Assembly (NCBI GenBank): GCA_003233095.1
Contig: QIKT01000076.1
Coordinates: forward strand, 1 to 45,918
DNA: 45,918 nucleotides
Reading direction: 5' to 3'
DNA from: Oceanospirillales bacterium
GTDB lineage: Bacteria; Pseudomonadota; Gammaproteobacteria; Xanthomonadales; SZUA-38
Shown here piece by piece: positions 5,285-37,145 of the stretch (within the stretch, counting starts at the first letter, position 1; each line of letters begins with the position of its first letter). The position numbers and the translations under genes are program-made. Below the pieces are notes generated by a model, which was given only the letters and a program-made list of their open reading frames with translations, did not search any database and was not told the origin of the DNA.

Positions 5285-7332
5285 AGAAAATTGCCAGCTA
5301 TGTGAACGGCCACTGGTTTGAAAGCGACTCTCAGGGGCGTGCCGTCCACAATGCCGTGACCGGTGAGCTGATTGGCACCGTCAGCTCTGACGGAGTCGAT
5401 TTCAAGGCCGTGCTGGAATACGGACGCTCCTCGACGCTGCGTCACATGACGATCCATGAACGTGCTCTGGCCATCAAGGCGCTGGCGGTTCACCTGGACT
5501 CAAAAAAGGAGAGTTTCTACCGTCTTTCTAGCATGACCGGAGCTACCCGCGGTGATGGTTGGGTGGATATCGAAGGGGGCATTGGCACCTTGTTTGCGAT
5601 GTCCTCGATTGCCCGGCGTGAGCTACCCAACGAGCCGTTCATTGTCGAAGGCGAGCCAATCCCGCTGTCGAAGAACGGGACGTTTCTCGGACAACACATT
5701 CTGACTCCCAAGCTGGGCGTTTCGGTGCATATCAATGCCTTCAATTTTCCCTGCTGGGGAATGCTCGAGAAGATCGCTCCATCGTTGATTGCCGGGATGC
5801 CGGTGATCGTCAAACCCGGAACCGTGACTTCCTATCTGACCGAGGCGATGGTGCGCGAAATCATCGCTAGTGGCTTGTTTCCGGAAGGCTCGGTACAACT
5901 GATCTGCGGGGGTGTCGGCGATCTGTTCGACCATCTGACCTCTCAGGATGTGGTGACATTTACCGGATCAGCCAACACCGCCGAGAAGTTGAAATCTCAT
6001 CCCAACATTCTTAATAACTGTATCCCCTTCAATACCGAAGCCGACTCTCTGAACTGTGTGATCCTGGGGGCGAGCGTGTCCGAAGATGACCCCGAATTCG
6101 GCTTGTTCATCAAGGAAGTGGTTCGCGAGATGACCGTCAAATGTGGGCAAAAATGTACGGCCATCAGGCGCTCCATTGTTCCGGCGGGCATGATCGACAC
6201 AGTCATTCAGGCCATCAGCGAACGACTCGATGGGGTGGTCATAGGTGACCCCGATCACGAGGGTGTGCGCATGGGGCCTCTGGTCGGGACATCGCAGCGC
6301 CAGGACGTCAGAGACAACGTCGAACGGCTGAAGGAGACCTGCACGGTCGTCTACGGCGGTGAGTCCGAGTTTGAGGTCGTCGGGGCTGATCGCGAGGCCG
6401 GGGCGTTTTTCCCGCCGACCTTGCTGTTGTGCGAGCAGGCGATGCAAATCACTGACGGCCCACACGCCATCGAAGCCTTTGGTCCAGTCAATACGCTAAT
6501 GCCGTATGAGTCTCTGGACGACGCCATCGAATTGGCCAGGCGCGGGTTGGGGTCTCTGGCAGGGTCGGTATTCAGTCATGATGACGAGGAGTCCCGTCAA
6601 CTGATTCTGGGCACAGCAATGTTTCACGGCCGAATGCTGGTGATCAATCGGGATTGCGCGGGTGAGTCCACAGGCCATGGCTCACCGATGCCGATGCTGG
6701 TTCATGGCGGTCCGGGTCGTGCGGGCGGTGGTGAAGAGCTGGGCGGCTCACTGGCCATCAAGCACTACATGCAACGCACTGCTATCCAGGGTTCTCCCAC
6801 CACGTTGATGGCTATTACTCGACAGTATGTGCCTGGAGCCAGAACCACTACCGATGTGGTGCACCCGTTCCGAAAATATTTCGAGCAGTTGGCGATTGGT
6901 GAATGCTATCAGACGCATCGGCGTACCGTGACCGAGGCAGATATTGTCAATTTTGGCTGCTTGTCAGGCGATCATTTCTACGCGCATTTTGATGACATTG
7001 CCGCGAAACAGTCGCCGGTGTTTGGCAAGCGAGTGGCGCACGGATACTTTCTGATTTCGGCAGCAGCAGGTCTGTTTGTAGATCCGGCGCCAGGTCCGGT
7101 TCTGGCAAACTATGGCCTGGATAATCTGCGATTTATCACGCCGGTCGGCATTGGTGACACGATTTCGGTCAAGCTGGTGGTCAAGCAGAAGATTCGCAAG
7201 GCCCCACGGGACGATGAGCCCTTGCAGGGAATTGTCAAATGGGCAGTGCAAATAAGCAACCAGCATGATGAGCTGGTTGCTCTGTATGACGTGCTGACAC
7301 TGGTACTGCTTGCAGAGGGGCAGCCTGATTGA
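5281..7332 (+). CDS. paaZ: Bifunctional oxepin-CoA hydrolase / 3-oxo-5,6-dehydrosuberyl-CoA semialdehyde dehydrogenase
   Basis: A 683-aa fusion that opens the oxepin-CoA ring and oxidises the resulting aldehyde. The aldehyde dehydrogenase domain (about 1-515) shows Glu253 in NTEADSLN and the nucleophile Cys292 in [12 protein letters not shown], each three residues earlier than the E. coli E256/C295 pair. The C-terminal MaoC-like hydratase domain (about 535-683) has GDHFYAH with Asp564 and His569. Both catalytic sets are intact, so both activities are expected. It follows paaY by a 4-nt overlap. Its stop directly abuts the stop of the convergent lipoprotein gene, with no space for a separate terminator. 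Confidence 0.96.
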
Positions 7333-7689
7333 TCAGGGCTGTCTCATCCAGCGGCCTTGCAGTATTGCGTAAGTAGGCGCATTGCTGATCGTCAACACAT
7401 CCTCGGATACTGTGTATTCAAGCAACACGCTTTCCTCGTAGACGATCATGGTGATGCGTCCGCCATCGCCCTGCCAATCGCTCAGGTCGTAGTTCACGCC
7501 ACCTTTGACACTGAGACGACCACTGCTGTCGGCATTGAGTGTCAGGATTGAGTCAGCGTATTCACCCGAGGTTAGTCTCCAGGTCCCGGTCAAATCAGCC
7601 ACCGGATCACTGCATCCGGTGAGTATGATCGTCATGCAAAGAACGATCATGGTGGTGACGAGACCCTGATGGAATGGTCTTCTCTTCAT
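7333..7689 (-). CDS. Small lipoprotein of unknown function
   Basis: A 118-aa protein with a basic N-terminus, a hydrophobic stretch (about 10-23) and the lipobox ILTGC, so it should be lipidated and membrane-anchored in the envelope. The mature part is about 93 residues, beta-rich, and contains a DLTGTWRLTSGEYADSILTL segment that resembles small lipocalin-like domains, where GTW marks the first strand. That fold assignment is inference. The ATG at 7689 follows a GAGGAGGGT Shine-Dalgarno. It is divergent from gloB and converges on paaZ, and nothing links it to either pathway. Confidence 0.75.
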   Translation of the reverse strand: MKRRPFHQGLVTTMIVLCMTIILTGCSDPVADLTGTWRLTSGEYADSILTLNADSSGRLSVKGGVNYDLSDWQGDGGRITMIVYEESVLLEYTVSEDVLTISNAPTYAILQGRWMRQP

Positions 7690-7830
7690 GGTACCCTCCT
7701 CGTCGTATCAACCAGTATATCCCAATGCTCTGTTGTCAGCACCGGGCCATAGGTCAGCTCTGAGGATGGCCCCATCGACGTGATGATTGGTGTCTGCACA
7801 AACAGGGCATGAACGTCAGAGAGGACCCGC

Positions 7831-8622
7831 ATGATCGTCGAACGAATCTGGATCAATAATCGCCTTCGCAACTACAACTATCTGATCGCCTGTCCGCAAA
7901 CCGGCGAAGCGATGGCGCTTGACCCTTTGGCTCATCAGCTCTGTTTGCAGCGAGCCCAGCTACGAGGTTGGGAGATTACCAGTATTCTGAATACGCATGA
8001 ACACCCGGATCATACAGCGGGTAATGTGCCGCTGATGAGCATGACCGGCGCCCCGGTTCTGGCACATCACGGCGCTCAAGGAAAGATTCCGGGAATGAGT
8101 CATGCGCTGCGAGCCGGTGATTCTGTTCGAGTGGGCACGAGTGTTGTATTGAAGGTGCTGGATACGCCGGGTCACACCCGCACTCATGTCTGTCTGCTCT
8201 GGGAGACCGAGACACCCGCTCTGTTTTGTGGCGATACCTTGTTCAATGCCGGCGTGGGCAATTGTCACAATGGCGGTCATCCCGAAGCGCTTTATCAGAC
8301 GTTCAGCACCCAACTGGCTTGTCTGGATGAGTCGACTCAGGTTTATCCGGGGCATGATTACATGGTCAACAACCTTGAGTTCACGCTGGACCGTGAGCCT
8401 TCAAATCAGGCTGCGGCTGCCCTGTTGGAAAGGGTTCGTGACCTGGACCCGACCGAGTTGCCGATCACTACCCTGGGCATGGAGAAGCAGATCAATACGT
8501 TTTTCAGGCTCAGTCAGCCAGAGGTCATCGAGCGACTCCGGGATCAGACGCCCGGTCTGGCTGAGGATCCCTCCGAGGAAGCCGTCTTCCTGCGCCTTCG
8601 CCAATTGCGCAACGACTGGTAA
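7831..8622 (+). CDS. gloB: Hydroxyacylglutathione hydrolase (glyoxalase II)
   Basis: A 263-aa metallo-beta-lactamase-fold hydrolase that releases D-lactate and glutathione from S-D-lactoylglutathione in methylglyoxal detoxification. The metal motif THEHPDHTAG gives His56, His58, Asp60 and His61. Further ligands are in DTPGHTRTH, CGDTLF and YPGHDYM. The C-terminal HAGH-type substrate domain includes LGMEKQINTFFRL. The ATG at 7831 has GAGAGGA upstream. The length is close to the usual 250-260 residues. It stands alone between a divergent lipoprotein and a convergent small ORF. Confidence 0.93.
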   Translation: MIVERIWINNRLRNYNYLIACPQTGEAMALDPLAHQLCLQRAQLRGWEITSILNTHEHPDHTAGNVPLMSMTGAPVLAHHGAQGKIPGMSHALRAGDSVRVGTSVVLKVLDTPGHTRTHVCLLWETETPALFCGDTLFNAGVGNCHNGGHPEALYQTFSTQLACLDESTQVYPGHDYMVNNLEFTLDREPSNQAAAALLERVRDLDPTELPITTLGMEKQINTFFRLSQPEVIERLRDQTPGLAEDPSEEAVFLRLRQLRNDW

Positions 8623-8632
8623 GCGTGTCGTC

Positions 8633-8899
8633 TCACTCGTCATTCTGATTCGCAGCGTGGGCGGCAAATACTTCTGCACCGGTCAACCGTGCGGTGTCAT
8701 TGGCGAAGGCATAGTACTGCGGTTGCTCATCGACAAAGATTTGCTGGGTCATGGCCACCGGGTTAACGGTGCCAAATTGAACCGTTTCGGAAAGCGGGTT
8801 TGCTTCGAAACTAAACAGCCAGTTTCCTTTGACGTAATCGATCTGAAGGTAGTCGGACCGAACAGGCTGATAGGGTCGCAGAAGCCAGGGTCGTGACAT
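8633..8899 (-). CDS. Hypothetical 88-aa protein
   Basis: No family was recognised. The product is rich in aromatic residues in its first half (WLLRPYQPVRSDYLQIDYVK, then a NWLFSF segment), with a small, acidic C-terminus ending NQNDE. There is no signal peptide, membrane segment or metal motif. It converges on gloB with a 10-nt gap, as neatly placed as the window's other genes, which supports it being real. Its upstream side opens onto the repeat-rich 8900-9476 stretch and no clear Shine-Dalgarno was found. It could instead be a chance ORF or a remnant. Confidence 0.45.
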   Translation of the reverse strand: MSRPWLLRPYQPVRSDYLQIDYVKGNWLFSFEANPLSETVQFGTVNPVAMTQQIFVDEQPQYYAFANDTARLTGAEVFAAHAANQNDE

Positions 8900-8922
8900 T
8901 CAATCTCTGAGGGTTCTATTCC

Positions 8923-8999
8923 ACGCCGCTTGCGGCGAATAAACGCTAAGCGAGCGAATTCTTCTAAATACCCCGCCCCTTGGGGCGGGGATGTTTATT
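8923..8999. repeat. C-rich palindrome pair, possible IS200/IS605-type end
   Basis: Two hairpins lie close together: CGCCGCTTGCGGCG at about 8925-8938 and the stronger CCCCGCCCCTTGGGGCGGGG at about 8971-8990, the latter flanked by AAATA and GATGTTTATTT. An AT-rich context around a short G/C hairpin with a TT loop resembles the subterminal hairpins of IS200/IS605 elements and their MITE derivatives. No TnpA or TnpB coding sequence is nearby, so this would be a solo end or a REP-like palindrome. It lacks an adjacent T-run and is not a good intrinsic terminator. The element assignment is inference. Confidence 0.45.
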
Positions 9000-9175
9000 T
9001 GTCACTTCCTGTGACTGTTGATCAAATTCCGGTGCCAGCCAATGCAGTCAAGACACTGTCCGTTCCAATACTGTTGCAGGCGAGTGGTGAATTGATCAGA
9101 GCCATCGAGTTGTGCAAGAAGCGTGTTGCGACCCACCAGTCAAAGCGGTTGACCGGAGTCATCAAAACTTAGCCA

Positions 9176-9413
9176 GGGAGCCTCTGAACAAGTCGTTAAC
9201 GGCTGTCTTGAGCGCGAAATACGCCCGCTCGGCGTTGTCTGAGCTAAGGAACCTCTGAACCAGTCATGACCGGTTGTCTTGAGCGTCAAACACGCCTCCT
9301 CTGCGTTGCATGAACCGAGCCATAGCAACAACTTATGACTCGGTTCATGCGCCTTGATCGGACGTATTTGCCATCTCAATCCAACTCGCTTAAGACTTGT
9401 TCAAAGGCTCCCT
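9176..9413. mobile_element. Family 1 hairpin element (MITE-like), rearranged double copy
   Basis: Two left halves stand in tandem before one right half. The first left arm begins GGGAGCCTCTGAACAAGTC at 9176 and carries GTCTTGAGCG before breaking off near 9246. A second, diverged left arm, AGGAACCTCTGAACCAGTC, starts at 9247 and continues to the right terminus, which ends GACTTGTTCAAAGGCTCCC-like at about 9412. The inner stem of the second copy is a perfect 12-bp inverted repeat: GCATGAACCGAG (9308-9319) with CTCGGTTCATGC (9339-9350). The copy at 36026-36189 has the simple organisation. There is no coding capacity, so mobilisation would have to be in trans. Confidence 0.8.
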
Positions 9414-9476
9414 AAGAAACTAAAAAATTAAAGCATACTGTGTTAACAGTGAATCAAGGTGAGTCTCGCTCAATGA

Positions 9477-10349
9477 TCAGTCCCAGAGCCTGATCAGTCC
9501 TTCCTGGTTGACCGAGGCGACCAGGTCTCCCTGCTGGTTGAAGACCTGGCCGCGTGACAGTCCCCGCCCACCGATGGCGATCGGGCTTTCCAGGCTGTAC
9601 AGCAACCAGTCATCGATGCGGAAATCGCGGTGGAAGAACATCGCATGATCGAGGCTGGCCAGCTGCAGGTTTTCGGTAAACAGGGTGACCTTGTGCGGTA
9701 GCAGTGAGGTGGTCAGCAGGCCGTAGTCACTGGCGTAGGCCAGCATCGCCCGATGCAGGATAGGATCATCGGGCAGAATTCCGGACGCTTTGAACCACAA
9801 TTGTCGAACCGGCTCCTGAACCTGCGGATCTTTCAATTGAGGTTTCTGCACCCAGCGAAAGTTGAATGGTCGAGTCTCGAACAGAAAACGCCGCGTCTTG
9901 GGCGGCAATTGATCGGCTCCATCGAGGGTTTCTTCGGACTGATCGGTCAGCGTGCTGTAGTGAGGGACGTCCGGCATCGGGCGCTGATGACACAGGCCCT
10001 CCTCATGCTTCTGGAAGGAACAGGCCAGATTGAGGATCGGCTTGCCGTGCTGAATGGCGACCACCCGACGATTGGAAAAACTGGAGCCTTCCAGTTGCTG
10101 ATCGACTTCGTAGACAATCGGCGCCTGCATGTCGCCCGGACGCAGGAAATAGGCATGCAAGGAGTGCACGCTGCGGTTGTCGACTGTGCGATGCGCGGCC
10201 GATAGAGCCTGTCCCAGCACCTGACCACCAAACACCTGCTTGCCGCCAATATCGCGGCTTTCACCACGAAACAGGTTCACTTCAAGCTGTTCGAGCGTCA
10301 GAACGCGAACCACTTCATCGAGTTTCTGCTGATCGGTCAGTCCGGGCAT
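9477..10349 (-). CDS. tesB: Acyl-CoA thioesterase II
   Basis: A 290-aa double-hotdog thioesterase that hydrolyses medium- and long-chain acyl-CoAs. The C-terminal hotdog shows the residues expected from E. coli TesB: Asp in LAYASDYGLL and Gln in ASVNQEG. At the usual Thr position (ATIDHSMWFHR in E. coli) this protein has Ser within ASLDHAMFFHR, a conservative change. The ATG at 10349 with GGAGAG upstream starts MPGLTDQQKLDEVVRVLTLE, the typical TesB N-terminus; a longer reading frame to 10490 would run into the peptidase gene. It lies 13 nt downstream of that peptidase gene and is probably co-transcribed with it. Confidence 0.93.
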   Translation of the reverse strand: MPGLTDQQKLDEVVRVLTLEQLEVNLFRGESRDIGGKQVFGGQVLGQALSAAHRTVDNRSVHSLHAYFLRPGDMQAPIVYEVDQQLEGSSFSNRRVVAIQHGKPILNLACSFQKHEEGLCHQRPMPDVPHYSTLTDQSEETLDGADQLPPKTRRFLFETRPFNFRWVQKPQLKDPQVQEPVRQLWFKASGILPDDPILHRAMLAYASDYGLLTTSLLPHKVTLFTENLQLASLDHAMFFHRDFRIDDWLLYSLESPIAIGGRGLSRGQVFNQQGDLVASVNQEGLIRLWD

Positions 10350-10362
10350 AGTGTCTCTCCGT

Positions 10363-12951
10363 TCAGTGGGCGTCCAGGGACCCGATTTCAGGCAGGCGCG
10401 TGCGCTGAATGATCGGGCCGAAGTACAGGGCGTTGATATACAGTCGCTGGGTGCCGGTCCAGAACCCTCGGAAGTTGGGATTGTCGGCAAACCGGATCAG
10501 GCTGCCGCTGCCGAGGCGGCTGGCGATCACGGCCGGCTGTCCGGCCATCTGCTGACGGCGCTGGTCACCGAGAAAACCACTGAGCAGCGGCTCATCGGCA
10601 TAATTCATCGGCGTGTCGTAAGGATTGTCAGTCATCTCCAGAATGACGGTGCCGCGTTTGAACAGGGGCAGCGAGTCGGACGCCAGGCCCCAGGCGAGGG
10701 GATGGCTCTGGTCCACATCCGCTTTGACAATGGCTCCGCCGATGATGGTATCGCTCAAATCCTGGCTAAAATCGGAATAGGGGCGTCGTTCGATGGCTTC
10801 GGACTCGTCGCTGTCCGACGCATCATCGGGGCGGTCGGGGAAGAAGGTCTTGCTGGTCTGCAACCACTCGCTGGCCGTGCTGGTTGTGATCAAGGTGCCG
10901 CCGGCCTGAACCCAGCTCTTGAGCGCGTCACGACGCGCTTCGTTCATGGCGTCGTAGCGACCATTGACCATCAATACGTGGCTGTACTGGTCCAGATCAA
11001 TTGACTCCAGACGAGCCATTTCGACCATGCTAAGCGGCAGTTCGAGACGCTGATCGAGCAGGTGCCAGACCTCGCCGACGTCCAGCGGCGAAACACCGTC
11101 ACCGATGATGATCAGCGGCGTAACGGCCGACAGAGAGGGCATGCTGGGGCCGCCCAGGTCGGGTCCTTCCGGGGTCAGATAGGATCGAATTGGCACCACT
11201 GGAAGCTGATCTTCGTTGGCCAGGGTTGCCAGCAGAGTCTCAACGGCCTGCTGCTGGGCCGGGGTAGCCGGCATGATCATGATCGCACCGGGGATGAATT
11301 TTCGCTGACCGGTCGGAGTTTGTGCCGTAAAGGGCTTTGTTGCCACACGAACCGGAATCTCGGCTTTGAGCAAGCGGTTGAGTGCGCGCGGTGCATGAAC
11401 GTGTGACCAGTCAAAGGCATAGGCGGTTGAACCACTGACCGCCTGAGCGGGGCTGTTCCGGTTGTCGTTGACACGCTCACCCATCAGATCGCTGGTCTTG
11501 CTCAGGCTGATGCTGTCAAGATCATAAGCCATGGCCATGTTCCAGGCCGAGACATCGTAAAAGGTATTGTCTTCGAATTCTGTGCGGGTCTCGAACAGGC
11601 TCTTCAGCAATCGATAGGCCGGCTGTTGCATCGAGACGATGTAGGCAGTTCCTGGTTCGTATCGGACGCCCTCGCGTGTCAACGCTTCGCTCAGGTGGTG
11701 AACCTCGATCTGATGGCCGCGCAGCATGTCGGCAAGCTGGCGTGCCTTGACCGGATCATTGACGCGGCCAAACAGCACGGCCTTGATGCGGTCACGAGAG
11801 GCCAGATCAGCAGTTTGCAGGCGGAAGTCGCGGCGATAGGTCAGCAGTTTCTGATGGTTTGCAATGGCGCCCTCAATGGTCGATAGCGAGGTCAGGAACT
11901 GGTTTCGAATGGCCGTCTGGAAGGACAGTAGCCCGTTGCTAGAATCGGCCAGATGACCTCGAGCACTGGCTTGTTCAAACAGAATGCCAATGGCGCCGAG
12001 CGCATCGGGGTAGGTCGAGCCTTTACCGTAATAGAAGTCGTCAAACTGCTCTTCGGTAAAGTAGGGCTGATTGACTGAGTCCAGGGCGCGAGCATGGTAG
12101 GTGGCCAGTTCGGCCGTAATGTCGAAGTTTTCGGTGGGCGTCCAGGGGTTTTGACGACTGCGAACACCGGGCTGAAAGAAATAGGTCGAGTCAGTGCCCA
12201 TCTCGTGATAATCGGCGACGACATGCGGGCGCCAACGATTCATCACCGCAACCCGGTTGCGTGATTCGGGGTGCACCAGCGGCAGCCAGTCACGATTGAG
12301 GTCAAACCAGAAGTGATTGAAACGCCCACCGGGCCAGACTTCGTTGTGTTCACGGTTGTCTCGATCGCTGACCAGCGCCTGTATGCCGCGATGGCTGTTG
12401 ACCCACTGTGCAAAACGGCCCAGACCATCGGGGTTCAGTGACGGGTCGATCAGCACGACCGTATTGTCCAGCCAGGACTCGGCCTCATCACCCTGCATGG
12501 CGGCCAGATGGTAGGCGGTTAGCATCGAGGCGTTCGAGCCGCTGGCCTCATTGCCGTGAATGCTGTAGCCCAGCCAGACGACCAGAGGCGCATCAGGGTC
12601 GACGGTGTCGCTGTTCAACTGTCGCTGATGATGCGCCAGAATGTCATCAATGCGGGCGATGTTTTCGGCACTGCTGACAGTGAGAGTAACCTGTCTGCGA
12701 TTCTCATGGGTGCGGCCGATATCGTCGATCAATACCCGATCGGAGGCAGTGGCAACTGCTTCCATGTAATGAACCAGTGCATCATGTCGGATGTGCCAGT
12801 CACCAACCTCGAAGCCGATCACAGATTCAGGCGTTGGGATACGCTCGTCGTAGCCTGGCGGGTCGCTCAGGAAACGTGTCATGTCGGCTTGTCCAGTGGA
12901 ACAGAGCAGTGTCAGGATGAGAGCAGAAAGAACGGTCAGTCGTCGGGTCAT
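10363..12951 (-). CDS. Exported M14-family zinc carboxypeptidase, 862 aa
   Basis: The N-terminus is a signal peptide (basic MTRRL, hydrophobic core, predicted cleavage after GQA near residue 22), so the protein is exported. The M14 zinc site is His132 and Glu135 in IHGNEASGSN and His249 in DYHEMGTDSTYFF. NPDG follows the first pair, and Glu326 in GILFEQASARG is the likely catalytic glutamate. The peptidase domain ends near residue 370. A C-terminal region of roughly 490 residues follows, including a glutamine-amidotransferase-like GGTLITTSTASEWL segment (about 680-700). Similar large M14 peptidases occur in peptide-degrading marine gammaproteobacteria. The substrate is unknown. It lies between ubiA and tesB. 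Confidence 0.88.
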   Translation of the reverse strand: MTRRLTVLSALILTLLCSTGQADMTRFLSDPPGYDERIPTPESVIGFEVGDWHIRHDALVHYMEAVATASDRVLIDDIGRTHENRRQVTLTVSSAENIARIDDILAHHQRQLNSDTVDPDAPLVVWLGYSIHGNEASGSNASMLTAYHLAAMQGDEAESWLDNTVVLIDPSLNPDGLGRFAQWVNSHRGIQALVSDRDNREHNEVWPGGRFNHFWFDLNRDWLPLVHPESRNRVAVMNRWRPHVVADYHEMGTDSTYFFQPGVRSRQNPWTPTENFDITAELATYHARALDSVNQPYFTEEQFDDFYYGKGSTYPDALGAIGILFEQASARGHLADSSNGLLSFQTAIRNQFLTSLSTIEGAIANHQKLLTYRRDFRLQTADLASRDRIKAVLFGRVNDPVKARQLADMLRGHQIEVHHLSEALTREGVRYEPGTAYIVSMQQPAYRLLKSLFETRTEFEDNTFYDVSAWNMAMAYDLDSISLSKTSDLMGERVNDNRNSPAQAVSGSTAYAFDWSHVHAPRALNRLLKAEIPVRVATKPFTAQTPTGQRKFIPGAIMIMPATPAQQQAVETLLATLANEDQLPVVPIRSYLTPEGPDLGGPSMPSLSAVTPLIIIGDGVSPLDVGEVWHLLDQRLELPLSMVEMARLESIDLDQYSHVLMVNGRYDAMNEARRDALKSWVQAGGTLITTSTASEWLQTSKTFFPDRPDDASDSDESEAIERRPYSDFSQDLSDTIIGGAIVKADVDQSHPLAWGLASDSLPLFKRGTVILEMTDNPYDTPMNYADEPLLSGFLGDQRRQQMAGQPAVIASRLGSGSLIRFADNPNFRGFWTGTQRLYINALYFGPIIQRTRLPEIGSLDAH

Positions 12952-24472: not shown

Positions 24473-25243
24473 TTAATCGCTTCGAACGATCGTGGTGGCC
24501 ATAGGCAGATGGTCGGACAGATCGATGTTGATGACGTCCACATCGATGGCCTTCAGACTTGGCGAGGTGAGAATGAAGTCGATGCTGCGCTGAGGGTTCC
24601 AGCTCGGAAAGGTATGCGAGTCGCACACTGCTGGAGTCAGGCCCGAGGCCTCCAGGAATTCCCTGATCTCCGGTGTGTCGGACTGGGCATTCAGATCACC
24701 CATCATGACCACATGGCGTTTGTTGGCGATCAGATCCGACAGGTACTCCAGTTGCAGCGCACGAGATCGTTTGCCCAGAGACAGATGCGAAACGATCACA
24801 TGAAATGCATCATCCCCCTCGCCGTAGCGAGCGACCAGTGCACCACGGCCTGCAATTCGGCCAGGGAGTTTGTGGTCGTGGACTTCATCGGGCAGGTATC
24901 GGCTGAGCAGCGCGTTGGAACTGGCCGCGATCTTGCCGACTTTTCGGTTGGCCTGCGTGCTCCAGTAGGGGAAGCGGGCTTTTTCAGCCAGATACTGAGA
25001 CTGATTGAGAAAGCCGGATCGAAAGCTGCCATTGTCGAGCTCCTGCAAGCCAACGATGTCGTACTCACTGATCAGTTCTGCGATGGATGCCAGGTTGGCG
25101 CTGCGTTCTGAATGCGGCATCACGTGTTTCCAGCTTTTGGTCACGTAATCACGGTAGTTGACGGTGGTGGTTCCAGCCTGGATGTTGAAGGTCAGAAATC
25201 GCAGGCGATCAACGCGCTGCTTGGTTTGTGGGTCGATCAGCAT
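24473..25243 (-). CDS. Endonuclease/exonuclease/phosphatase family hydrolase
   Basis: A 256-aa EEP-fold enzyme. The metal-site signature is complete: TFNIQAG (Asn), GLQELDN (Glu), VSHLSL, MGDLNAQ (Asp, Asn) and LSDHLPM (Asp-His at the C-terminus). With no signal peptide and compact length it resembles the stand-alone EEP proteins found next to dsbA and cytochrome c4 in Pseudomonas and Xanthomonas relatives. Substrate (DNA, phospholipid or phosphodiester) cannot be read from sequence. It is transcribed in the same direction as dsbA but is separated from it by a strong terminator at 25285-25320. Confidence 0.85.
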   Translation of the reverse strand: MLIDPQTKQRVDRLRFLTFNIQAGTTTVNYRDYVTKSWKHVMPHSERSANLASIAELISEYDIVGLQELDNGSFRSGFLNQSQYLAEKARFPYWSTQANRKVGKIAASSNALLSRYLPDEVHDHKLPGRIAGRGALVARYGEGDDAFHVIVSHLSLGKRSRALQLEYLSDLIANKRHVVMMGDLNAQSDTPEIREFLEASGLTPAVCDSHTFPSWNPQRSIDFILTSPSLKAIDVDVINIDLSDHLPMATTIVRSD

Positions 25244-33345: not shown

Positions 33346-33358
33346 CAAGACTCCTTTG

Positions 33359-33506
33359 GGAACCTCTAGAAACCGTAGCGAGCGGTTCGAGTGCAAGGCG
33401 CACGGAGCACGGAGCACAGGAACCGCAGTGTACTGGGCAGTACATGAGGGTTCCGAGCACCGCGCAACGACGCAATCGGAACGCGCAGCAGGTTTCTAGA
33501 GGTTCC
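33359..33506. mobile_element. Family 2 hairpin element (MITE-like), intact copy
   Basis: Perfect terminal inverted repeats GGAACCTCTAGAAACC and GGTTTCTAGAGGTTCC bound a 148-bp element. A central palindrome GTACTGGGCAGTAC is flanked by GGAACC and GGTTCC. CTTTG occurs directly before the element (33354-33358) and one base after it (33508-33512), a possible 5-bp target duplication. It sits between the VOC gene and the gamma-CA gene and overlaps the VOC stop codon. A reverse-oriented, end-truncated copy lies at 36191-36323. No coding capacity is evident. Confidence 0.8.
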
Positions 33507-33888
33507 TCTTTGTGTTGTTAATCCGCCAGGGCGGATGGGTTCGGTTGCTGCCGGCATGATACAGGCACAGGGTGTTACCACCAGGGTCGAGGAGGCGTGC
33601 TTCTCGCCACAACCAGCGTTGATCGGTTGGCTGCTGGGTGAACACGATGCCCTTCTCTAGCAGATCCGAGACGGTCTTGTCCAGATCCTCGCATTCGAAA
33701 TAGATGACCACTCCTGCGGTGTGGATCGGTGCCTCACAGGCATGCACTGAAAACGTGGCTGGGCCATTGGCAGACTCGAATCGGGCATAATGCGGTGAGT
33801 CGACGATTTGCCGGAGACCCAACTGTCGGTAAAAGGCAACCGACGCTTCAATATCCAACGCTGGCACGGTAATCTGATTGAGATTCAT
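33496..33888 (-). CDS. VOC (glyoxalase/bleomycin-resistance) family protein
   Basis: A 130-aa protein with two beta-alpha-beta-beta-beta modules of the vicinal oxygen chelate fold. The first runs from MNLNQITVPALDIEASVAFY to FSVHACEAP. The second is marked by VIYFECEDLDKTVSDL and the C-terminal LLDPGGNTLCLYHAG, where PxGN is the family signature. The substrate is unknown. The last residues and the TAG stop (33496-33498) come from the inverted repeat of the inserted element, so the original C-terminus has been replaced, though the fold ends before that point. It is divergent from prlC and in line with the downstream gamma-CA gene. Confidence 0.88.
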   Translation of the reverse strand: MNLNQITVPALDIEASVAFYRQLGLRQIVDSPHYARFESANGPATFSVHACEAPIHTAGVVIYFECEDLDKTVSDLLEKGIVFTQQPTDQRWLWREARLLDPGGNTLCLYHAGSNRTHPPWRINNTKRNL

Positions 33889-33939
33889 CTGTCCTCACCC
33901 TGCGGCCTGGCCGCTTTTTGAACTGTGGAAACCATTGCT

Positions 33940-35979
33940 GTGAAGACTACCGAAAACCCGTTACTTGAAACACCATCGGCGCTGCCCGAATTTGACCGCA
34001 TCAAGCCCGAACATGTGCTGCCAGCAATCGAATCTCGCATGGCGCAGTACCATGAACAACTGGCACCGGTCCTGACGCATCCCGATCAGACGGACTGGGA
34101 CGGTTTCGTGGCTGTTGAAGAACGTTTGCTGACCGATCTGGATGAGAGCTTTTCACCGGCCTCTCATTTGCATGCGGTGATGGATTCTCCGGAATGGCGA
34201 GAGGTTTATGCTGAGGCGGTCGTGCTGGTTACAGATTTTTCAACGACTCTTGATCAGAACCCAAAGCGCTTTGCCGCGTACCGGCACATCCATCAGTCAA
34301 CACAGTTCACAGCACTGAATTCCGCTCAGCAGGCCGTCATCATCAAGGCGCTGAGAGACTTTCGACTCAGCGGCATCGATCTGCCGGACGAGGATCAGCG
34401 CCGTTATCGCGACCTGGTGCGCGACCTGACCGAACTGAGCACGTCCTTTCAGCAGAATCTACAAGATGCGACCGACGGCTGGTTTTGCCAGTTTGACGAC
34501 GACTCAGCGCTCGATGGCTTGCCGGATCGTGCGCTGCAGATGGCCCGTCAATACGCCAAACAGCGAGACCTGACCGGGGTCGTGGTGAATCTGGAGTTTC
34601 CAAGTTATCAGGCCGTGATCACCTACGCCAACGATCGCACATTGCGTGAGCAGGTGTATACCGCCTATTGCACTCGAGCCTCTGATCAGGGTCCGCAAGC
34701 CGGACAGTGGGACAATGCGTCGCTGATCGAGGATATTCTGGCGCGGCGAGATGAATTGGCCAAACTGCTCGGATTTGACCGTTATATCGAGTATTCGCTG
34801 GAAACGAAAATGGCCCGCAGTCATCAGGAAGTCGATCAATTCCTGGTGGCGCTGGCCGACAAGGCTCGCCCTCGAGCCCTGGACGAACTTCAGTCGCTGA
34901 CCGACTTCGCTCAGCAGAACGGATTGCCGGCTGATCAGCCCCTGTGTGCCTGGGATATTCCTTACTTTTCCGAACGCCTGCGGCAGCAGCAGTATCAAGT
35001 CAGCGATGAGGAAATTCGCCCTTACTTTCCGGTTGAGAAATGTATTGATGGCTTGTTCGAGGTGGTTCAATCCTTGTTCGGGATCAGCATGCAGGCCGAT
35101 GCGTTGGTGGCGGTCTGGCATCCGGACGTTCGTTTCTATCGGTTGATGGACCACGACGGCGAGCCTATTGCGGCCTGTTACATGGACCTGTTTGCGCGCA
35201 AGGGTAAGCGCGGAGGTGCCTGGATGGCTGATTGTCGCTCTCTGCGAGAAACGGCCACAGGCAAGCAGCTGCCAGTGGCCTATCTAAACTGCAATTTTGC
35301 CGCCCCGGACGACGGCAATGACTCGCTACTCAATCATAATGAACTGACCACCCTGTTTCACGAGTTTGGTCATTGTCTGCACCATATGCTGACCCAAATC
35401 CCTTATCCAGCAGTGGGCGGGATTGCCAATGTCGAATGGGATGCGGTGGAATTGCCCAGCCAGTTTCTGGAGAACTGGTGCTGGCAGTATCCGGCCCTGG
35501 TTCGCTTCAGCGCTCATCATCAGAGCGGCGAGGTGCTGCCAGAAGCACTGTTTGAACGAATGAGAGCCGCAAGGCATTTTCAGTCCGGCCTGTTTCTGCT
35601 ACGCCAGATCGAATTCGGGCTGCTGGATTTCAGGCTGCATGCCCGACCGGGCGAGGCTCCCGAGTCGGTGGTCAATGAAGTTCGAGGAGAGGTTGCCGTC
35701 GTCGAGTATCCGGACTTCAATCGTTTCATCAATGGATTTGGGCACTTGTTTGCCGGTGGATATGCCGCCGGCTACTACAGCTATTTGTGGGCCGAGCAGT
35801 TGGCGGCCGATGCCTTTGATCGATTCGTCACCGAAGGCATTTTCAATGCACAGACCGGCGACTCCTTCCGCCGTGAGGTGCTCGCGCGCGGAGGGTCACG
35901 ACCTGCGGCCGAATCATTCGAGGCCTTTCGAGGCAGGCAACCAGTCATCGAACCACTGCTGGACAGTTACGGCTTGTGA
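33940..35979 (+). CDS. prlC: Oligopeptidase A (M3 metallopeptidase)
   Basis: A 679-aa cytoplasmic thimet-type zinc peptidase that degrades signal-peptide fragments and small peptides. The zinc site is HEFGHCLHHM (His474, Glu475, His478) with the downstream glutamate in NVEWDAVELPSQF. Full family length. The start is uncertain: GTG at 33940 with GGAA 8 nt upstream gives a TTENPLLETP N-terminus close to known PrlC proteins; GTG at 33925 would add five residues and lacks a ribosome binding site. The stop overlaps by 4 nt the start of an xthA remnant, showing that these genes once formed an operon. Confidence 0.95.
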   Translation: MKTTENPLLETPSALPEFDRIKPEHVLPAIESRMAQYHEQLAPVLTHPDQTDWDGFVAVEERLLTDLDESFSPASHLHAVMDSPEWREVYAEAVVLVTDFSTTLDQNPKRFAAYRHIHQSTQFTALNSAQQAVIIKALRDFRLSGIDLPDEDQRRYRDLVRDLTELSTSFQQNLQDATDGWFCQFDDDSALDGLPDRALQMARQYAKQRDLTGVVVNLEFPSYQAVITYANDRTLREQVYTAYCTRASDQGPQAGQWDNASLIEDILARRDELAKLLGFDRYIEYSLETKMARSHQEVDQFLVALADKARPRALDELQSLTDFAQQNGLPADQPLCAWDIPYFSERLRQQQYQVSDEEIRPYFPVEKCIDGLFEVVQSLFGISMQADALVAVWHPDVRFYRLMDHDGEPIAACYMDLFARKGKRGGAWMADCRSLRETATGKQLPVAYLNCNFAAPDDGNDSLLNHNELTTLFHEFGHCLHHMLTQIPYPAVGGIANVEWDAVELPSQFLENWCWQYPALVRFSAHHQSGEVLPEALFERMRAARHFQSGLFLLRQIEFGLLDFRLHARPGEAPESVVNEVRGEVAVVEYPDFNRFINGFGHLFAGGYAAGYYSYLWAEQLAADAFDRFVTEGIFNAQTGDSFRREVLARGGSRPAAESFEAFRGRQPVIEPLLDSYGL

Positions 35980-36025
35980 AAGTGGCCCGTTGGAACGTCA
36001 ACTCGCTTCGGGTTCGACTCGAGTA
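35976..36025 (+). pseudogene. xthA: 5' stump of exodeoxyribonuclease III, truncated by a repeat element
   Basis: GTG at 35976 overlaps the prlC stop (GTGA) and opens a 16-codon frame reading VKVARWNVNSLRVRLE before TAG. This is the invariant N-terminus of XthA-type AP endonucleases, where the WNVNS asparagine is a metal-site residue. Immediately after the stop a 164-bp family 1 element begins (GGGAGCC at 36026). No trace of the remaining roughly 240 codons was recognised up to the next gene. The stump cannot be active. It could also be described as a small ORF, but the match and operon-type overlap support a truncated gene. Confidence 0.82.
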
Positions 36026-36189
36026 GGGAGCCTCTGAACAAGTCGTGATCGGCTGTCTTGAGCGTGAAATACGCCGGCTCGGCGTTGCATGAGCTGAGCC
36101 ATAGCACCACTATGACTCAGCTCATGTGTCTTGATCGGACGTATTTGCCATCTCAATCCAACTCGCTTAAGACTTGTTCAGAGGCTCCC
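36026..36189. mobile_element. Family 1 hairpin element (MITE-like), intact copy
   Basis: A perfect 19-bp terminal inverted repeat (GGGAGCCTCTGAACAAGTC and its complement) bounds 164 bp. Inside it, GTCTTGAGCG pairs with CGCTTAAGAC, and AATACG with CGTATT. The core is a hairpin: ATGAGCTGAG (36089-36098) pairs perfectly with CTCAGCTCAT (36116-36125), and CATAG pairs with CTATG around a CACCA loop. The whole element can fold into one long imperfect hairpin. It truncates xthA on its left and joins a family 2 copy on its right after a single base. Confidence 0.85.
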
Positions 36190-36190
36190 T

Positions 36191-36323
36191 GGAAACCTGC
36201 TGCGCGTTCCGATTGCGGCGTTGCGCGGTGCTCACAATCCTCATGTACAGCCCAGTACACTGCGGTTCCTGTACTCCGTGCGCCTTGCACTCGAACCGCT
36301 CGCTACGGTTTCTAGTGGTTCCC
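36191..36323. mobile_element. Family 2 hairpin element, reverse copy lacking one terminus
   Basis: This is the reverse complement of the element at 33359-33506: GGAAACCTGCTGCGCGTTCC matches the far end of that copy, and the run closes with GGTTTCTAGTGGTTCCC. The outer GGAACCTCTA of the left terminus is missing exactly where the family 1 copy ends, so one element inserted into or recombined with the other. The 36324-36368 remainder before the dioxygenase stop holds nothing recognisable. Confidence 0.78.
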
Positions 36324-36368
36324 TATTGTCGACGACGACCGTGAAAGGCGCAAACCGACTGGAGGGTC

Positions 36369-37145
36369 TCAGTCTTCGTTGGGACGTTGCAGTACCACTT
36401 CGTCCAATCGGTCCGTGTTGCTGTCGGCAAGCGGGCTGACGTCGTCGCCGTGATAACTGGTTACCACGGAGTACTTGGTTTGATCGGTCCAATTACGGGA
36501 CGCCGCGTGCAGCGTTCTGGCGTGAAACAGCAGCAGATCCCCTGGGTCCAGGTCGACGGCCACTGATTGATCGATCAGAGTCTGATTGGCGGGAAGATCG
36601 GTCCTGAAAAACTGTTCGGCGTCGAGTTGACCATCGTTCAGGTCCAGATAACAAGATCCGGGGATCACAAGCAAGCCGCCGTTGTTCTGTCGTTCTGGAA
36701 CCAGGGCCAGCCAGGCGTTGATCAGGCGATGATCTGAAAATGACCAGTAGCGCGTGTCACGATGCCAGAGGGTGTCCGACGAATAGTCGGGACGTTTGGT
36801 CATAATGCAATTATGGTGGCTGCGGGTCAGATGCAGCCTCCGGGTGTTAAGCAGACCACATAGCAGGGAGATCAATCGAGGGTTTGACGCCCATCTGCGA
36901 TAGACCGCATCACGATCCCAGGCCTGCAGCAAGCGGCGAATGGTCTGACCACCCGGTGCCGACTCATTGGCCGGCGCATTGGGGTAGGGCAGGTTGGCCT
37001 CAAGTTCAAACGGTTCGATCCGCTGCTCGAGATGTCGGGCGGTCACGGTCAGCATCGAGCTGACCTCAGAGGCATTCAGGCAGCCTCGAACAACGAGGTA
37101 GCCGTCACGCTGGAACTGTCTGGCCTGATCCTTGCCAATGGTCAT
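36369..37145 (-). CDS. Phytanoyl-CoA dioxygenase (PhyH) family protein
   Basis: A 258-aa Fe(II)/2-oxoglutarate-dependent oxygenase of the double-stranded beta-helix fold. The iron ligands His128 and Asp130 are in LWHRDTRYW, and the distal His213 is in ARTLHAASRN, where Arg217 would bind 2-oxoglutarate. GDLLLFHA precedes the last site, as in PhyH/EctD-like enzymes. The hydroxylated substrate is not predictable. The ATG overlaps the stop of the reductase gene by 4 nt (ATGA), so the two are translationally coupled, although PhyH enzymes normally need no reductase. Confidence 0.88.
   Translation of the reverse strand: MTIGKDQARQFQRDGYLVVRGCLNASEVSSMLTVTARHLEQRIEPFELEANLPYPNAPANESAPGGQTIRRLLQAWDRDAVYRRWASNPRLISLLCGLLNTRRLHLTRSHHNCIMTKRPDYSSDTLWHRDTRYWSFSDHRLINAWLALVPERQNNGGLLVIPGSCYLDLNDGQLDAEQFFRTDLPANQTLIDQSVAVDLDPGDLLLFHARTLHAASRNWTDQTKYSVVTSYHGDDVSPLADSNTDRLDEVVLQRPNED

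Follow-up and report, generated by a model that had tools for sequence, protein, structure and literature searches.

What became of the exonuclease III gene xthA behind prlC, and is an enzyme of this family still encoded in the genome? The question arose in a 45,918-nucleotide stretch of DNA from an Oceanospirillales bacterium (the window), which corresponds to contig C18 in a draft assembly of 2,888,411 bases and 232 contigs (92.8% complete). A preliminary description of this stretch proposed that a hairpin element had cut xthA down to its first 16 codons and that the strain had thereby lost this copy of a base-excision repair nuclease. We examined the stump, the prlC locus of related genomes, the elements at the junction and the exonuclease III-family genes of the whole assembly. 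Coordinates of the features are collected in Table 1.

Table 1. Features of the prlC-phyH interval in the window and of the corresponding interval in the same-family genome G002
Feature	Position	Strand	Remarks
Family 2 element, intact copy	33358..33507	+	across prlC from the copy at 36189 and opposite to it in orientation
prlC (oligopeptidase A, M3 family), intact	33925..35979	+	57-58% identity to same-family relatives over its length
xthA stump, 16 codons (VKVARWNVNSLRVRLE) and TAG	35976..36026	+	GTGA overlap with the prlC stop; intact gene at this place in G001-G003
Family 1 element (putative MITE), 162 bp, GGAGCC...GGCTCC, terminal inverted repeat GGAGCCTCTGAACAAGTC	36027..36188	.	inner stem 36088-36126; flanks GTAG (left) and CTGG (right) unmatched
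Family 2 element, terminal inverted repeat GGGAACCTCTAGAAACC	36189..36323	-	xthA-side repeat lacks its outer tip; family 1 lies at its internal CTAG (here CTGG)
Stretch of 45 bp from family 2 to phyH	36324..36368	.	no recognisable xthA or trmJ remnant
phyH-like dioxygenase (PF05721)	36369..37145	-	right-hand anchor of the deletion; TrmJ/YjtD-family gene adjoins it in relatives
G002 prlC	6413-8467
G002 xthA	8464-9231
G002 TrmJ/YjtD-family methyltransferase	9238-9957	-	TIGR00050, 197 bits against a cut-off of 167
G002 phyH	9954-10739	-

The xthA stump and the prlC locus in relatives

Direct reading of the sequence showed that prlC ends in ...GGC TTG TGA, with its stop codon at 35977-35979, and that the GTG at 35976 opens the frame VKVARWNVNSLRVRLE, which is closed by TAG at 36024-36026. 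The stump shares 11 of its 16 residues with the start of the relatives' xthA (MKIASWNVNSLKVRLP), and the N-terminal motif W-N-V-N-S-L-x-V-R-L is recognisable in it at the syntenic place. When all 91,742 stretches of 16 residues from the window's six reading frames were scored against the N-terminus of a relative, the stump came first with a BLOSUM62 score of 61; the runner-up scored 29. This bears out the earlier reading of the frame as the beginning of exonuclease III, with GTGA shared between its start and the prlC stop. The catalytic residues of a working exonuclease III (the Glu of QETK, the Asp and Asn of GDxN, and SDH) are absent from the 16 codons that remain. Judged by its sequence, the stump is a remnant of a prlC-linked exonuclease III, and the similarity is not due to chance. 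An accidental open frame, or a short leader peptide with no relation to xthA, would accord with a length of just 16 codons, but it would leave unexplained both the score of 61 against 29 and a position and stop-start overlap exactly as in the intact xthA of three relatives; we consider this reading practically negligible.

The comparison genomes G001, G002 and G003 belong to the same family as the host, not to the same genus. All three carry an intact xthA of 255 amino acids, whose ATG overlaps the prlC stop, at the position of the stump. The pair is rarer further out in the order: in G014 and G038, xthA begins 125 and 59 bases downstream of the PrlC match, and at the remaining order-level PrlC loci compared no xthA lay within the examined flank. 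A PrlC search of an 84,980-species collection for a closer relative gave best segments about 51% identical and none nearer than the same-family genomes. The preliminary description had named relatives with no xthA after prlC as the finding that would speak against a loss. Because the pair is present in G001-G003, and nearby in G014 and G038, the claim survives this comparison.

The remainder of the gene was sought at the junction and beyond. A tblastn search with a relative's XthA across 35961-36420 matched the stump and gave no further credible hit. Nothing convincing was found when 36324-36400 was read in three frames for the 3' end of xthA, nor by relaxed tblastn for xthA or trmJ remnants near the junction. 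Searches of the 92.8%-complete assembly with an exonuclease III profile, and with a relative's protein at E ≤ 10, likewise failed to recover the missing part, in agreement with the earlier statement that the rest of the prlC-linked gene is gone.

The two-gene gap and its origin

In G002 the gene order is GGDEF (-), hemB, aroE, gamma-carbonic anhydrase (-), prlC, xthA, TrmJ/YjtD-family gene (-) and phyH (-). The window has the same order from hemB through aroE and the gamma-carbonic anhydrase gene to prlC, with a VOC-like gene before prlC, and continues with the xthA stump and phyH. The TrmJ/YjtD-family gene directly follows phyH in all three relatives; in G001 and G003 this pair sits elsewhere, and the full ancestral order prlC-xthA-trmJ-like-phyH was seen in G002 only. 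The distance from xthA codon 17 to the phyH stop is about 1.44 kb in G002 versus 342 bp in the window, where it consists of 297 bp of mobile elements and 45 bp of unrecognisable sequence. One local gap has therefore removed codons 17-255 of xthA and the whole trmJ-like (RNA-methylase) gene of the locus.

The hairpin beside the stump proved to be two nested MITEs, with family 1 inside the terminal repeat of family 2. Inverted termini were found at 36025-36051 and 36164-36190, with an inner stem of 17 bp, and target-site analysis set the element proper to 36027-36188. The xthA stop had been described as lying directly against the GGGAGCC end of family 1. Its G does double as the first G of GGGAGCC; with the refined boundary, the stop codon lies inside the 4-bp left flank GTAG. 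Both termini of family 1 are intact. Its right flank is family 2's own CTAG, present as CTGG, and its left flank joins xthA. A plain nested insertion is disfavoured, because it would have left the outer tip of family 2 in place. On its own, the flank mismatch says little, since 43 of the 62 family 1 copies with both flanks have imperfect 4-bp flanks.

The stump is most probably a pseudogene remnant, the product of a local deletion that affected an ancestral prlC-xthA (NExo type)-trmJ-like-phyH locus and ended at the MITE nest. For the order and mechanism of the events we infer the following. An ancestor with this gene order would have received a family 2 element in the prlC-phyH interval, and a family 1 MITE would then have landed at CTAG within the family 2 terminal repeat. 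Finally, about 1.4 kb would have been deleted up to the outer end of family 1, taking with it xthA from codon 17 onwards and the whole trmJ-like gene. Because the deletion end-point falls at the element, either of two routes is suggested: an adjacent deletion driven by a transposase, or homologous recombination involving a second family 1 copy once present in xthA. Adjacent deletions and recombination between copies are both documented to leave elements without target duplications (PMC11708052). Insertion-sequence deletions in E. coli long-term lines resemble the present case in ending at an element without a matching duplication (PMC11708052).

Such elements normally arrive by insertion, and the intact termini of family 1 would agree with family 1, or families 1 and 2 together, having landed in an intact xthA whose 3' part decayed later through separate small deletions. 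Yet the 45 bp between the element and phyH hold no vestige of xthA codons 17-255 or trmJ, the family 1 flanks are not a duplication, and the outer repeat tip of family 2 is absent on the xthA side. We regard simple insertion as improbable and prefer a deletion ending at the nest. The earlier proposal that a hairpin element cut xthA is right about the loss of the gene. The element was not a simple cutter of the gene, however, because the deletion also took the trmJ-like gene and two elements are nested there with discordant flanks.

Faulty assembly was also considered. In a draft of 232 contigs, with the junction within repeats and family 1 present more than 160 times in the genome (337 termini), two loci could have been joined at a repeat while the true genome kept an intact xthA after prlC; several family 1 copies, L006 for example, have half-nested flanks. 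Against this, exact identity between the junction region and other compared copies extends over 52 bp at most, so that family 1 copies can be told apart. The displaced 3' part of xthA occurs nowhere in the assembly, even at E ≤ 10, and phyH is the right-hand neighbour expected from G002, which a random chimera would not yield. For these reasons a chimeric join, or an unassembled xthA remainder at the junction, is unlikely.

The event seen at this locus is an ordinary MITE-associated gene loss. It offers a clean case of a MITE-bounded deletion, in which two genes went at once and a readable stump was left. Because an intact second repair gene, of another sub-type, is kept elsewhere in the genome, this ordinary loss has a specific, testable consequence.

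Lost and retained exonuclease III sub-types

The preliminary description held that this copy of a repair nuclease had been lost, with no other XthA or Nfo visible in the window. The prlC-linked copy is indeed lost, and Nfo was not detected in a search of the genome. The genome profile search nevertheless identified one intact exonuclease III-family gene (C2:47337-48095) on another contig, outside the window, and the genome is therefore not without an enzyme of this family. The EEP protein at 24473 matched the broad PF03372 and PF14529 models only and no exonuclease III model, consistent with the earlier view that it is no obvious replacement. A reading of "repair gene lost" from a single window needs a genome-wide check for paralogues.

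In Neisseria meningitidis, NExo acts as a 3'-phosphatase and lacks AP endonuclease activity, whereas NApe has the opposite specificity, with Asn108 and His167 contributing to the difference; His167 of NExo blocks AP sites, and ExoIII has been called an orthologue of NExo (PMC6294502). Among solved structures, the relatives' prlC-linked protein was closest to NExo (2jc4, E 6.9e-82) and matched the E. coli ExoIII structure 1ako at E 3.9e-48; the protein kept on C2 was closest to NApe (2jc5, E 1.4e-91). In a tree, the C2 protein grouped with the relatives' second copies and NApe, and NExo and the prlC-linked copies stood apart with 100/100 support. Both sub-types are thus present in same-family relatives. 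The prlC-linked proteins of G001-G003 have Asn at position 108 and, in all three, Leu in place of NExo His167. The C2 protein has Ser and Gly at the equivalents of 108 and 167, as NApe does, and its catalytic motifs are kept.

By structure matches and tree position, the kept copy is of the NApe (AP endonuclease) sub-type. The lost copy was probably of the NExo/ExoIII sub-type, judged on its orthologues in G001-G003, which have Leu in place of the AP-blocking His167 and may or may not, therefore, act as AP endonucleases. From these assignments we infer a specific prediction: AP-site incision would be kept, and 3'-phosphatase activity and 3'-end cleaning by the exonuclease III family would be lost.

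The arrangement resembles the NExo/NApe pair of N. meningitidis (PMC6294502) in that same-family relatives have both enzymes, the kept protein matching NApe and the relatives of the lost one matching NExo. It differs in that the NExo-type copy is gone here and that the relatives' prlC-linked enzymes have Leu rather than His167. E. coli xthA (ExoIII) is of the same sub-type as the lost gene, but in E. coli Nfo serves as a back-up, whereas here an NApe-type enzyme remains and Nfo was undetected. The host genome, with 2.9 Mb (92.8% complete), is under half the size of those of its family relatives (6.2-6.5 Mb). That loss of the NExo-type nuclease in the absence of Nfo itself helped the burst of elements and the rearrangements in this genome seems very doubtful to us; were it so, the genome would offer a natural example of the division of labour between NExo and NApe upset on one side.

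The two element families in the genome

A search with a 17-base core (at most 1 mismatch) found 337 family 1 termini in the genome versus none for a reversed control pattern, and the copy number is about 170. The same terminus search found none in the three same-family relatives; scattered termini occur elsewhere in the order (69 in G006, for example). The 4-bp duplications were perfect in 19 of the 62 copies with both flanks, mostly as CTTG, TTAG, CTAA or CTAG. A YTAR-like 4-bp target duplication is the pattern of IS5-type elements. Family 1 is short and non-coding, with inverted terminal repeats, a YTAR-like 4-bp duplication, no transposase gene and a very high copy number, features that point to a MITE of the IS5 kind. 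Unlike the usual IS5-type MITEs, it occurs here nested with an unrelated family, with CTAG in the family 2 terminal repeat as its target. Family 2 has 34 matches in the genome, and family 1 was found repeatedly at the CTAG of its terminal repeat (L021/L107, L110, L114 and L117). A literature search found no paper for the YTAR rule or for the family 1 terminal repeat sequence.

Four PF01609 loci were found in the genome in the search for an autonomous IS5-type partner, none of them bounded by family 1 termini. At the end of contig C19 (L195) and the start of C115 (L197), two DDE_Tnp_1 gene halves each stop at a family 1 terminus that has CTAG as its flank; the halves may be one transposase gene interrupted by a family 1 copy.

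The commonest flank pair of family 1 was CCAG...CTGG (7/62 copies, including L010, L012, L020, L025, L031 and L099). It corresponds to a CTAG duplication with two T-to-C changes and resembles a very-short-patch-type change at CTAGG. Very-short-patch repair as its source is left unsupported, because the genome search found no Vsr. At L028:1501-2474 (G000:C129), a ParD-like/ParE-like toxin-antitoxin pair (PF11903, PF15781) lies between two copies of family 1 whose outer ends carry a perfect CTAA duplication, an arrangement suggestive of mobilisation of the pair as a composite unit.

The two family 2 copies that bracket prlC are inverted, 2.7 kb apart and 91% complementary, an arrangement with the potential to invert prlC. 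Family 2 sequences (window 36243-36318; L103, L104, L108 and L112) matched the Rfam family sX9 below its gathering score, with a best E of about 0.001, hinting that this Xanthomonas sRNA family may be related to the family 2 repeat.
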